DNA of 64,000 nt from Alphaproteobacteria bacterium. GTDB taxonomy: Bacteria; Pseudomonadota; Alphaproteobacteria; M2410. Positions 30,266 to 63,511 of the stretch are shown here, in pieces. The stretch is taken from assembly GCA_030614785.1 (NCBI GenBank), contig JAUWTJ010000002.1, positions 62,001-126,000 of the forward strand, written 5' to 3'. A program made the position numbers and the translations under genes. Below the pieces are notes generated by a model that saw only the letters and a list, made by a program, of their open reading frames with translations, did no database searches and was not told the origin of the DNA. Position 1 is the first letter of the stretch; every line of letters begins with the position of its first letter.

Positions 30266-30699
30266 CTTTCGTCCCGATCCATCTCAATTTGCGCAACGGT
30301 AATGAAGTGCGACTCCGATCCGACAAATTCGTTACGTGCCGGCAAAACGATAGCAGGCTTCGCGTGGGGCACGGCGTTATAGCGCACGGGCACGCCGTCC
30401 ATGTCCTTGTCAAACAGATTGTACCCCAGCCATGGCACGTCTTCGATGGCCGCAATTTGTTCAGCACGAACCGTATCAAGTCCCAGGTGTGCCTCGGCAA
30501 GTTTCCTCAAATTACTCGGACGCGTGAGATGGCTCCACTCGGCACTCAGGACATTGATGGCTTCCTTTTCGCGATCAATGGCGCGGTCAATTTGCCGCAA
30601 CTCCTCACGCGCCTCCTGAGTTTCATATTTTAAATCACTGGCGCCGAAATAGAGCGCAATCAAAAGGGCAAGGGAAAGGGAACTAAAGACACGTATCAT
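30253..30699 (-). CDS. ftsL: Cell division protein FtsL
   Basis: Small single-TM coiled-coil protein between rsmH and ftsI. Confidence 0.85.
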   Translation of the reverse strand: MIRVFSSLSLALLIALYFGASDLKYETQEAREELRQIDRAIDREKEAINVLSAEWSHLTRPSNLRKLAEAHLGLDTVRAEQIAAIEDVPWLGYNLFDKDMDGVPVRYNAVPHAKPAIVLPARNEFVGSESHFITVAQIEMDRDERWGD

Positions 30700-31691
30700 T
30701 GGATGTGAACCTCTACTCTGTTGGGTGGCTCGAACGAAGTGGACCAGGCTTTCGCGGCGGTGCGCTGCGCAGCGCGAAGTCTCGCCGATCGGGCGCGCGG
30801 GTTGTCTGTGGCTTCGGTTTCTTCCGGACGGCGCACCCGCGTGGTCACCAGTTCGAAAGAGGCGTCTGGCACATCGGGTAATTCCGGTGCATGACGCGAG
30901 CCCTGGCTGGTTCGCCCCGCTCTTTGCGAGAGGAAGCGTTTGACCAGTCGATCTTCAAGGGAGTGAAAGGATACAACGGCGAGGCGGCCAGTGGGGCGCA
31001 AGAGAACCTCCGCAGCCATCAACGCCCGGGCCAATTCGCCGAGCTCATCGTTGATGAATATCCGCAACGCCTGGAAGGTCCGGGTCGCGGGATGAATACG
31101 CCGTCCGCCCGGTTTGACGTGTACGGTCTTTTCCAGGAGGTCCGCCAGTTCGCCGGTTCGCGTGAACGGCTTTTCATTGCGGCGTGCAACAATCGCTTCA
31201 GCTACCCTGCGGGCCTGCTTTTCTTCACCATAGACGTTGATGATGCGGCGCAGATCCTGGGCACTCATGGTATTGACGACTTCGGCGGCACTCTCGCCGT
31301 CCGCCGCCATGCGCATATCGAGGGGGCCATCGGACGAGAAGGAAAATCCGCGCTCCGCCTGATCAAGCTGCATGGACGAGACACCTACATCGAGGGCGAT
31401 GCCGTCAACTTCTGTAACGTCATGCGCGGCCAGAAGTTCGCGCATGTCCCCGAAACGGCCCTGAATAAGGGTCAGGCGGCCGGAGAATTCTTCTTCCATC
31501 GCACGGCCTGCCGCAATTGCCGTCGGGTCGCGGTCTATCCCGAGGACGGCGCAGTCGGCAGCTTCAAGAATGGCGCGAGAATATCCGCCGGCACCAAAGG
31601 TTCCATCGACATAGACGCCGCCGTCGCATGGGTTCAAGACGTCGATAACTTCTGCCAGCATGACCGGGATATGAGTGCGAGCATCGCTCAT
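30696..31691 (-). CDS. rsmH: 16S rRNA (cytosine1402-N4)-methyltransferase
   Basis: HIPVMLAEVIDVL, DGTFGAGGYSRAIL, LDVGVSSMQLDQAERGFSF, SFHSLEDRLVKRF. Confidence 0.98.
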   Translation of the reverse strand: MSDARTHIPVMLAEVIDVLNPCDGGVYVDGTFGAGGYSRAILEAADCAVLGIDRDPTAIAAGRAMEEEFSGRLTLIQGRFGDMRELLAAHDVTEVDGIALDVGVSSMQLDQAERGFSFSSDGPLDMRMAADGESAAEVVNTMSAQDLRRIINVYGEEKQARRVAEAIVARRNEKPFTRTGELADLLEKTVHVKPGGRRIHPATRTFQALRIFINDELGELARALMAAEVLLRPTGRLAVVSFHSLEDRLVKRFLSQRAGRTSQGSRHAPELPDVPDASFELVTTRVRRPEETEATDNPRARSARLRAAQRTAAKAWSTSFEPPNRVEVHIQ

Positions 31692-32143
31692 GACGTCCCT
31701 CCAAAGCGCAGGCCGTCACGACTTTCGCGGGCCATGGCAGCAAGACGATCTTCCTGGAGCGCGTAGGTTTCCGGGTTCCAGATCTTGAACTTGCGGCCAA
31801 GCCCCATGAACATCACCTCGCCGTTCATGCCAGCGTGGGAAATCAGCAATTCCGGCAGCTTGATACGGCCTTCCTTGTCAAACGAGAGCTCATGAGCATT
31901 ACCAAGGATCGAGGCAGCCAGCGCGTCGCGTTTCTCACTGAAAGGCGGCATCTGATCGATCATGTCGCTCAGGGCCTCAAGTTGCTCCAGAGAGCAACCC
32001 TCGATGGAATTTTCGCTGAAAGAGGGAAAACAGATAATTCCGTTCAGGCTGGAATCCTTGACAGCGGCGCGGAAGCCGGCCGGAACGGAGACCCGTCCCT
32101 TGGCATCGATCTTGTTGACCACTGTTGACAAAAACGGCTTCAT
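31688..32143 (-). CDS. mraZ: Transcriptional regulator MraZ
   Basis: DAKGRVSVPAGFR and DKEGRIKLPELL AbrB-like repeats; first gene of dcw cluster. Confidence 0.96.
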   Translation of the reverse strand: MKPFLSTVVNKIDAKGRVSVPAGFRAAVKDSSLNGIICFPSFSENSIEGCSLEQLEALSDMIDQMPPFSEKRDALAASILGNAHELSFDKEGRIKLPELLISHAGMNGEVMFMGLGRKFKIWNPETYALQEDRLAAMARESRDGLRFGGTS

Positions 32144-32250
32144 TGCTCGCCTTTATTCCTCTAGACTGATCACCCTGGCAGGCAGAAACATGCAAAAAGG
32201 TCCTGCGCCACTCCAGTCGACCCCGGTTTGGGCTCACGCTTTCCATATAA

Positions 32251-32366
32251 TGGATCTAAATGGGATAGCATGGGCTCATATGGGCGTCAATGGTCTGAGA
32301 CTGCCTTTCAATGGTTTCAATTGGGTTAATGTGGCTGATTTTGGCGGATCCTGGGACAAAGGTGGA
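32251..32366 (+). promoter_or_regulatory. Extended MraZ-box-like array: TGG(G) cores at about 10-bp period
   Basis: TGG cores at 32251, 32261, 32271, 32281, 32291 then 32312, 32322, 32332, 32342, 32352 and 32363. Confidence 0.75.
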
Positions 32367-32459: not shown

Positions 32460-32924
32460 ATGTGGACCATTGAAAAGATCACCAAACCAGATGAACGACG
32501 GCAGATCTGCGCCGCGATCACAGAGACCTTGCCTGACTGGTTTGGCCGGCCGGAGGCAAACGCATCCTATGTGGAAGGCGTCGCGACGAAAGACGCCTTT
32601 GTGGTTCGCGGCGGCGACGGCACGGCTCTCGGTCTGCTGTCACTCAACCATCCCTACCCGTCGAATGTTGATATTTACTGGATGGGCGTTCGTCCCGAGC
32701 ATCATCGAAAGGGCATCGGAAAGGCACTCTTCGAAGCAGCGCTCGGGCGTGCCAAAGAGCTCGGCTGTGAAACGATGACAGTTGAAACACTCAGTGACAG
32801 CGACCCCGATCCCGGGTACGCGCGCACCCGGGAATATTACGCCGCTATGGGTTTCAAACCACTGTTTGAACTGCGCCCCCACGGTGATAATAACCCGATG
32901 CTCTATATGCTGAAACGGCTTTGA
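32460..32924 (+). CDS. GNAT-family N-acetyltransferase
   Basis: VDIYWMGVRPEHHRKGIGKALFEAALGRAKELG acetyl-CoA motif. Confidence 0.88.
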   Translation: MWTIEKITKPDERRQICAAITETLPDWFGRPEANASYVEGVATKDAFVVRGGDGTALGLLSLNHPYPSNVDIYWMGVRPEHHRKGIGKALFEAALGRAKELGCETMTVETLSDSDPDPGYARTREYYAAMGFKPLFELRPHGDNNPMLYMLKRL

Positions 32925-32933
32925 GATTGAAAA

Positions 32934-33300
<367 letters not shown>

Positions 33301-33335: not shown

Positions 33336-33338
33336 GCG

Positions 33339-33432
33339 ATACCATGCAAGGGGGTCAGACCCTATTATTGCAATGATCTTCCAGAATGTGGCAATAATAG
33401 GGTCTGACCCCCTTGCACCCCTTGCATGGTAT
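33339..33432. repeat. REP/BIME-like nested palindrome
   Basis: ATACCATGCAAGGGGGTCAGACCCTATTATTGC (33339-33371) repeated inverted at 33391-33432, with one extra 9-bp TGCAAGGGG in the right arm; each arm contains GGGTCaGACCC. Confidence 0.85.
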
Positions 33433-34164
33433 CTACCGAAAATTGAGATACGTGCGCAGGAGTTCCTGGGTGTGGAGGTCACCAAGGCCATTCATGGCTT
33501 CGGGGCGGAAGTGGCGCTGGAAGGCGAGCGTTGTGATCACGGTGGCTTCATCGAAGGCGCTGGTTATCTCCACCGCGTAGCCAAAGGCCCTGAGATTGTT
33601 CTGGAATTCCTGGACCTGCCAGCCCGTGTCACCCGGACGAATGTCCTGCCCGGCGACCGGTTCGACGGAGCCCGGATCGATGAAGCGCCCTACTCCCTTG
33701 AGCGCGAGGCGTTGCCAGGGAAAGAGCTCGCCCGGATCCTGCTTGCGCGTCGGGGCAACATCGGAGTGACCGATGACACGGGCCGCCGGGATGGAATGGC
33801 GGGAAAGAATGTCGCGCGAGAGTTCGATCACCGCATCGATCTGTTCTTTGGGAAACTCACGGTATCCAAATTCATGACCCGGATTGACGATCTCGATACC
33901 GATGGATCTGGCATTGATGTTCTCGTCGCCTGCCCACCAGGAAGCCCCCGCATGCCAGGCCCGCTCGGCTTCCTCGACCAGCTGGAAAATGCGGCCATCT
34001 TCCTCGACCACATAATGAGAACTGACGCCGGCTTCGGCGCTGCATAGGCGCTCGATGGCTTCCGCACCGGTTTCCATGCCGGTGTAATGCATCAGAAGAA
34101 TGTCAATGTCAGCGCCGCCGCGGGTGTCAAAGTTTGGTGACGGGCGTTTCAGTATTTTCAGCAT
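33433..34164 (-). CDS. N-acetylmuramoyl-L-alanine amidase, AmpD/AmiD-like, with peptidoglycan-binding domain
   Basis: LLMHYTGM, SSHYVVEEDGRIFQLV, GIEIVNPG, GHSDVAPTRKQDPGELFPW; C-terminal PG-binding repeat. Confidence 0.93.
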   Translation of the reverse strand: MLKILKRPSPNFDTRGGADIDILLMHYTGMETGAEAIERLCSAEAGVSSHYVVEEDGRIFQLVEEAERAWHAGASWWAGDENINARSIGIEIVNPGHEFGYREFPKEQIDAVIELSRDILSRHSIPAARVIGHSDVAPTRKQDPGELFPWQRLALKGVGRFIDPGSVEPVAGQDIRPGDTGWQVQEFQNNLRAFGYAVEITSAFDEATVITTLAFQRHFRPEAMNGLGDLHTQELLRTYLNFR

Positions 34165-61861: not shown

Positions 61862-63511
61862 TCAGATTGGCAGCGCACGCTCAACCAATGCCCTCGTATC
61901 AATGCCCTCAGGCAAAGTGCCGTAGCAATCGCCACTGCGGCCCGTCAGGCGGCTGGCGATGTAGGCCTCCGCCACGAAGTCCGGGCCAGATTTCAGGAAG
62001 ATTGCAGCTGCGGCCAGCTTTGCGAGATCTTCTGTGAGGCGGCGGCAAGTTGCCTCGCTGGCATGGGCCAGGTCGTCGGCCACTTTTGCCAACATCGTAT
62101 CGTAGTCCGGGTTCACGCCTTTGAGTTCAGCAAACTCCTCCATCACCAACCGCGCAGCATCCGGATCGCGAGCCAGGACGCGCAGAACATCCAGGCACAT
62201 GACCGTGCCGGAGCCTTCCCAGATCGCATTGACAGGCATGTCGCGATAGATACGGCCCATCATACCGGTCTCGACATAGCCGTTGCCACCGAAAACTTCC
62301 ATGGCTTCATAGGAGAATCCCGGACCGCGCTTGGTGACCCAGTACTTGATCACCGGTGTCATGAGGCGCAGGTACGCCGCCTCGCGCTCGCTTGTCGCCT
62401 GGCGGTCATGGGCACCGGTCAGACGGATGGCGAGCGCTGTGGCGGCTTCGGATTCCAGTGCAAGGTCGGCAAGGACAGCAGTCATGGCGGGTTGATCAAC
62501 GAGGGTTTTTTGATAGACGCGGCGGCCGCGCGCATGATTGACAGCCTGAGCGAGGGCCTGGCGCATCAGGCCTGCAGAGCCCAGCGCGCAGTCGATCCGG
62601 GTCAGGTTGGCCATGACCATGATGTTGGCGATACCGCGGCCTTCCTCGCCAATGAGTTCGCCGTATGCGTCGTGGAATTGTACTTCGGAGGAGGCATTGG
62701 ATGAATTGCCGAGCTTGTCTTTCAGGCGCATGAAGTGGATGGCATTGACCTCGCCCGACGGTTTGAATCGCGGAACGAGGAACACCGACAGGCCGCCCGC
62801 AGCCTGGGCCAGAATCAGGAAAGCATCGCACATGGGAGCCGACATGAACCATTTGTGACCGTGGATGTGGTAGGCTTGGCCCGGACCGCCGTCGCCGACC
62901 GGCCCGGCGCGCGTTGTGTTGGAGCGCACGTCGGTGCCGCCCTGTGCCTCGGTCATACCCATGCCGAGCGTGACGCCGGACTTTTCTGTCATCGGCCGGA
63001 AGCTTTCGTCATACTCACGCGTCAGGACCTTTGGTAACCAGGTTTCGGCAATGGAGGGCTGGATTTTCAGTGTCGGGATCACCGCATGGGTCATGGTGAT
63101 CGGGCAGATGTGACCGCTTTCGACCTGGGACATCATGAAATGTTTGGCGCCGCGAGCGACCGCAGTCCCAATCCCCGCGCCCTCTTCAAAGCTCTGCGCG
63201 TGGATACCGGCCTTGATGCTCAGCCTCATGAGGTCGTGATACGCGGGATGAAACTCGACCGTGTCGCTGCGCTGACCGATCCGGTCCAGAGTGTTGAGGT
63301 CAGGTTTGTGAACATTGGCCTGACGGCCCAGTTCGAAGATTTCACTGGTTCCAATCTGCGATCCGAAAGCATCCAGTTCGGCGGCGTGTGACGCGGCACC
63401 TTCGCGCGTGACGGCGTCCCGCAAGCCAATGTCGCCTTCAAACAAGTTGACGTCCTCGAAGGGACGGGGTTGATTGAATATTTCGTGGGTATCAAACTGC
63501 GAGATGGACAT
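61862..63511 (-). CDS. aidB: AidB-like acyl-CoA dehydrogenase
   Basis: FNQPRPFEDVNLFEGDIGLRDAVTREGA, CPITMTHAVIP, GMGMTEAQGGTDVRSNTTRA, LKDKLGNSSNASSEVQF, MPVNAIWEGSGTVMCLDVLRVL. Confidence 0.93.
   Translation of the reverse strand: MSISQFDTHEIFNQPRPFEDVNLFEGDIGLRDAVTREGAASHAAELDAFGSQIGTSEIFELGRQANVHKPDLNTLDRIGQRSDTVEFHPAYHDLMRLSIKAGIHAQSFEEGAGIGTAVARGAKHFMMSQVESGHICPITMTHAVIPTLKIQPSIAETWLPKVLTREYDESFRPMTEKSGVTLGMGMTEAQGGTDVRSNTTRAGPVGDGGPGQAYHIHGHKWFMSAPMCDAFLILAQAAGGLSVFLVPRFKPSGEVNAIHFMRLKDKLGNSSNASSEVQFHDAYGELIGEEGRGIANIMVMANLTRIDCALGSAGLMRQALAQAVNHARGRRVYQKTLVDQPAMTAVLADLALESEAATALAIRLTGAHDRQATSEREAAYLRLMTPVIKYWVTKRGPGFSYEAMEVFGGNGYVETGMMGRIYRDMPVNAIWEGSGTVMCLDVLRVLARDPDAARLVMEEFAELKGVNPDYDTMLAKVADDLAHASEATCRRLTEDLAKLAAAAIFLKSGPDFVAEAYIASRLTGRSGDCYGTLPEGIDTRALVERALPI

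Follow-up and report, generated by a model that had tools for sequence, protein, structure and literature searches.

An MraZ-box-like array of unusual length at an alphaproteobacterial mraZ promoter: a probable class-wide operator with an upstream extension

The mraZ locus and its phased repeats

The window, the whole stretch of 64,000 nucleotides analysed here (positions 62,001 to 126,000 of contig JAUWTJ010000002.1, Alphaproteobacteria bacterium), carries a dcw operon in the order mraZ-rsmH-ftsL-ftsI on its minus strand (Table 1). The product of mraZ matches PF02381 over two stretches (E=6.9e-18), contains both SpoVT/AbrB-like half motifs of MraZ (IDAKGRVSVP and FDKEGRIKLP) and has MraZ homologues in the PDB (1n0e, 9qlr, 9qlg and 9sx6), the last three of which are recent structures. 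A divergent gene encoding a GNAT acetyltransferase is the neighbour of mraZ and does not clearly belong to the system; a homologue 48% identical to it occupies the corresponding position upstream of mraZ in genome G001 (locus L012), which comes from the same family but from another genus. This GNAT gene is convergent to a gene for class A RNase P RNA (32932-33298, minus strand; RF00010, 328 bits), located on the mraZ strand and upstream of mraZ. Beside rnpB, at 33338-33433, long perfect inverted repeats were noticed around GGGGGTCAGACCC, with arms of 27 nt (33345-33371 / 33391-33417) and 16 nt (33338-33353 / 33418-33433), and a comparable pair that has 2 mismatches was recovered elsewhere in the genome (C23:46075-46129). 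The repeats beside rnpB look like a REP/RAYT-type palindrome.

Table 1. Position and strand of the features at the mraZ locus, numbered from the first nucleotide of the window.
Feature	Positions	Strand	Remark
rsmH (mraW)	30696..31691	-	ORF; next gene of the dcw operon
mraZ	31688..32143	-	151 aa; predicted autorepressor of the dcw operon
Possible extra box, TGGG	32229..32232	+	From the chain search; uncertain
Block A, five boxes (TGG at 32251, 32261, 32271, 32281, 32291)	32251..32294	+	Canonical alphaproteobacterial operator
-10 element, TATCCC	32262..32267	-	17 bp from the -35; reverse complement of the 32261 box
-35 element, TTGACG	32285..32290	-	Overlaps the box at 32291 (CCATTGACG)
Empty register between blocks A and B	32301..32304	+	CTGC; 10-11 bp to either neighbour
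Block B, six boxes (TGG at 32312, 32322, 32332, 32342, 32352, 32363)	32312..32365	+	Upstream of the -35
GNAT acetyltransferase gene	32460..32924	+	Divergent; PF00583, E=7.7e-12

Upstream of mraZ, eleven TGG cores on the plus strand, which read CCA on the mraZ coding strand, span 32251-32363 in steps of 10-11 bp with a single empty register, where CTGCC is found (32301/2). Five of the eleven are TGGG and not only TGG (32261, 32271, 32281, 32322 and 32352). The coordinates of all these cores in the original prediction were exact; a further TGGG at 32229 had been missed. This possible box is located between block A and mraZ, 22 bp from 32251 and in the +25 region of the transcript, and on its own could be due to chance; in relatives, the registers that bear on it (-45/46 and -55/56) show weak enrichment. 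All cores had also been placed on one face of the DNA, which is roughly but not strictly the case: 112 bp in 11 steps correspond to 10.2 bp per step, so that the array falls out of phase with a helix of 10.5 bp per turn by about 3.5 bp over its length.

When the 316-bp intergenic region was compared with 20,000 dinucleotide shuffles, both strands included, the observed chain score of 11 stood against a maximum of 5. A search of the whole genome (3.86 Mb) for four TGG spaced by exactly 10 bp retrieved the mraZ array, two simple tandem repeats and nothing else, and the reversed control pattern has zero occurrences. Searching the same genome for three ATGGG boxes spaced by 10 bp yielded only partial matches elsewhere; because these need two mismatches, mraZ looks like the main target of MraZ in this organism, as far as motif matches indicate. 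The array is a real, functional-looking operator, and its reading as a series of MraZ boxes was supported.

A probable operator fused to the promoter across the class

A total of 172 distinct alphaproteobacterial mraZ upstream regions, drawn from the same family, from a class-wide sample and from named genomes reached via rsmH, were scored for phased boxes. With rsmH as query 80 homologous loci were recovered, and a contig search with MraZ as query confirmed no relatives; the family/order level is represented by four genomes, none of them from the window's genus. Phased cores are clearly present in relatives, since an array with a score of at least 3 was found antisense to mraZ in 157 of the 172 regions (155 antisense only and 2 on both strands), with ATGGGATAWC as the consensus of the unit. 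About 9% of the regions had no array with a score of at least 3 on either strand (e.g. L160, L202, L217). Most chains had 3-7 boxes; a length of 8 was reached twice, 9 once and 10 twice. The window, with 12 when the 32229 box is counted, holds the longest array among the approximately 170 regions, which bears out its initial description as unusually long.

The original prediction had further remarked that the repeats read TGGG antisense to mraZ, a point to be compared with other species. The comparison was apt, and the orientation turned out to be the rule of the class and not a peculiarity of the window. E. coli (NC_000913.3) has three GTGGG boxes in coding-strand orientation, at -43, -33 and -23 relative to the ATG; they follow TTGACA-N17-TAAACT and are downstream of the -10. 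The window departs from this arrangement, its boxes being antisense and inside the promoter. Among the non-alphaproteobacterial loci, 14 arrays were forward and 0 reverse, once two Hellea loci (L092 and L095), which had been binned with the non-alphaproteobacteria in the strand count and whose arrays are also antisense, were moved to the Alphaproteobacteria; in the phylum sample, about 23 of 30 non-alphaproteobacterial regions were forward and none was reverse. The polarity of the operator is opposite, and its place relative to the promoter different, between Alphaproteobacteria and the other bacteria sampled.

The element TTGACG-N17-TATCCC, proposed at the outset as a weak promoter, is a real and conserved promoter of the class that is fused to the operator. 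Alignment of 91 relatives on the anchor GTCAATGG produced the coding-strand consensus tTCCCATTGACNcCCATNNtatCCCATGaTATCCCAT and, around the -35, the conserved consensus tTCCCATTGACNcCCAT. TTGAC[GATC] was present in 81 of the 91, a count to be read with the fact that the anchor itself selects for TTGAC; TATCCC stood at the -10 place, 17 bp on, in 52 and a TG one base ahead of it in 64. The window has the same extended -10, TG-C-TATCCC, with the TG one base upstream. Within the boxes of the anchored relatives the promoter reads CCCATTGAC-N-CCCAT...CCCATGATATCCCAT, and both hexamers are shared with boxes at fixed registers. The registers of block A (-35, -25, -15, -5 and +5 from the promoter anchor) were occupied in 38-77% of 90-91 anchored relatives, and two loci of the same family (L010 and L011) carry exactly block A. 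Block A therefore overlaps the promoter, with the -35 and the extended -10 inside the block, an arrangement in which binding could repress.

A generic sigma-70 scan detected no promoter at mraZ, because the -10 is TATCCC, whose last base is not T; in our judgement the comparative evidence overrides this miss. The promoter would place the transcription start of mraZ near 32255 and predicts a 5'UTR of about 112 nt. This leader was not more stable than its shuffles (z=+1.1), and no UpsM-like stable fold was seen in it. A 5'UTR of 170 nt has been reported for mraZ of Sinorhizobium meliloti (PMC5089854), and the lengths predicted here for Rhizobiaceae S139, Hyphomicrobium and Aureimonas, 164-181, are compatible with it, although a MAG named Rhizobium gives 105; the taxa compared are related ones and not the exact species. 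In R. sphaeroides, mraZ has no promoter within 188 nt and needs one beyond that distance. Several sampled loci from other species have arrays at -191 to -263, which would fit such a distant promoter.

In the open literature covered by the search, neither the fusion of operator and promoter throughout the class nor its polarity was found described. The same search returned no experiments on MraZ binding in Alphaproteobacteria, and no relevant paper on MraZ cryo-EM structures or on alphaproteobacterial MraZ motifs. With the fusion and the reverse polarity extending over the class, the E. coli picture is not simply transferable to Alphaproteobacteria, and the opposite polarity suggests that one repressor blocks transcription in two different ways.

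The upstream extension and its possible roles

The array had been regarded as a single unit, which is not so: five boxes are the standard of the class, and the six of block B are an exceptional extension. Block B is in helical register with block A, its boxes being located at +26, +36, +46, +56, +66 and +77 from the anchor. The first of them corresponds to an auxiliary box present at +26 in 26% of 90 relatives, against a background of 1.2%, and the 21-bp step leading to it is common in relatives. A weaker auxiliary box was detected at +15 in 16% of the 90, with little farther upstream. Six in-phase upstream boxes were found in the window alone among the genomes examined, the next best having three, and block B was not detected in G001-G003, genomes of the same family but of other genera. 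Across 385 alphaproteobacterial genomes, a double-array pattern (4+4) was recovered in the window's genome and in G318, plus simple tandem repeats in three genomes. At mraZ, the match outside the window thus comes from one other genus, as a contiguous run (G318), and this genus, g137, comprises four genomes with long mraZ arrays of their own.

The flanks of block B are degenerate, with an A before the core in 1 of 6 boxes and a G after it in 2 of 6, as against 77% each in the class. Weaker binding is therefore predicted, and the boxes of block B may have a lower affinity for MraZ. Degenerate flanks, together with the lack of block B in G001-G003, are also what would be expected if the extension were a decayed or neutral remnant of an operator duplication with no present function. 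However, decay hits cores as fast as spacers, yet all six cores are intact; the spacers of the two blocks have no evident similarity, none being visible by eye outside the cores; and with block A kept fixed, none of 50,000 shuffles of the sequence upstream of it produced six in-phase boxes. We regard such a remnant as rather unlikely. A recent tandem duplication of block A was rejected as a candidate, on the unlike spacers, and so was a second promoter in block B, for which no TTGAC-N17 partner was apparent by eye.

The reading that we favour, with a probability of about 0.8, is that MraZ represses its own dcw operon through block A, and that block B is an extended, cooperative upstream arm of lower affinity. 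The sequences directly show the array, its improbability by chance, its conservation together with the promoter and the rarity of block B; that MraZ binds and represses here, that it loads cooperatively and what block B does are inferred from them. In block A, one box ends the -35 hexamer, one is the -10 reversed, two fall within the spacer and the fifth coincides with the start point. If an MraZ oligomer occupied these adjacent 10-bp boxes, it would cover -36 to about +5 and exclude RNA polymerase by occlusion. Further MraZ subunits could then load cooperatively on the six weaker boxes of block B, from about -57 to -108, which would raise the occupancy of block A or bend the DNA; less MraZ would thereby be enough to start repression, or the MraZ level at which repression starts would be more sharply set.

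The weakness of the block B boxes relative to block A, and their position relative to the promoter, would also suit a two-stage switch, of the kind raised in the original prediction, in which block B activates transcription or recruits polymerase at low MraZ and block A represses at high MraZ, and MraZ has been described as an activator in mycoplasmas (as cited in PMC7761207). Weaker upstream boxes should nevertheless fill after block A, which is the wrong order unless nucleation differs, and we consider this switch unlikely. A different function could come from the other side of the intergenic region, block B being located about 97-148 bp upstream of the ATG of the GNAT gene: the array would then be a divergent operator shared with this gene, whose presence as a neighbour is kept in G001 of the same family. 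But G001 has the GNAT homologue and yet a short, degenerate array, a crude scan revealed no clear GNAT promoter, and block B carries on the register of block A. The link with the GNAT gene, raised in the original prediction, was thus left unsupported, and we hold a shared operator to be quite improbable.

The G-runs might also be proposed to act as a G-quadruplex, a role claimed for the mraZ leader of S. aureus (PMC11796246), and a canonical quadruplex pattern does occur in 59 of 162 alphaproteobacterial arrays, because the TGGG boxes are phased. Between 32220 and 32380, however, the window has no canonical motif (four runs of G3+ with loops of 1-7), and a quadruplex needs neither the exact 10-11 bp phasing nor the conserved T nor the flanking A, which makes this explanation extremely improbable. 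Conversely, the S. aureus leader quadruplex may deserve to be checked against MraZ boxes.

Under the favoured autorepression, the window array is a natural test of the number of repeats usable by a ring-shaped MraZ repressor, its eleven in-phase boxes forming, beside the three to ten of relatives, a natural dose series of repeat number. Few bacterial transcription factors are conserved as widely as MraZ, whose oligomer is ring-shaped. An array of twelve registers would fit a full MraZ ring or two half-rings, with about 115 bp of promoter DNA wrapped on the rim of one oligomer, or of two stacked ones, in a nucleosome-like repressor complex; ring wrapping had also been raised in the original prediction. 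Alphaproteobacteria as a class would block the promoter and not early transcription, with a polarity that is the reverse of that of Gammaproteobacteria. Taken as a whole, we judge this picture speculative and improbable.

Comparison with known MraZ systems

In E. coli, MraZ binds repeated boxes and represses its own operon (Eraso et al. 2014, as summarised in PMC8475190 and PMC7761207). The E. coli Pmra/mraZ1p resembles the window in its direct repeats with a TGG(G) core, spaced by 10 bp and located upstream of mraZ. It differs in having three boxes on the coding strand, whereas the window has eleven in antisense orientation, of which five fall within the promoter. Burkholderia MraZ likewise binds the upstream region of its operon, and at PmraBc of Burkholderia cenocepacia, where binding was demonstrated by EMSA, the repeats are also spaced by 10 bp; unlike those of the window, they number four and cover the start site, downstream of the -10 (PMC7761207). 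The Mollicute site, in the account of Fisunov et al. 2016 relayed in PMC8475190, similarly has direct repeats arranged in series at the promoter of mraZ, but with the core AAAGTG[T/G] and with MraZ described as an activator.

Within Alphaproteobacteria, a second independent long operator was observed in genus g137, all four genomes of which have long mraZ arrays (L152, L157, L267-L276). The +26 box is present in all four and the +15 box has been lost in two. The ten-box operators of this genus (G137 and G237; L157 and L152) are, like that of the window, antisense, embedded in the promoter and very long. Their extension is mainly downstream of the -10: they place seven boxes below the -35 box, on the mraZ side, and two upstream of it, whereas the window has six upstream.
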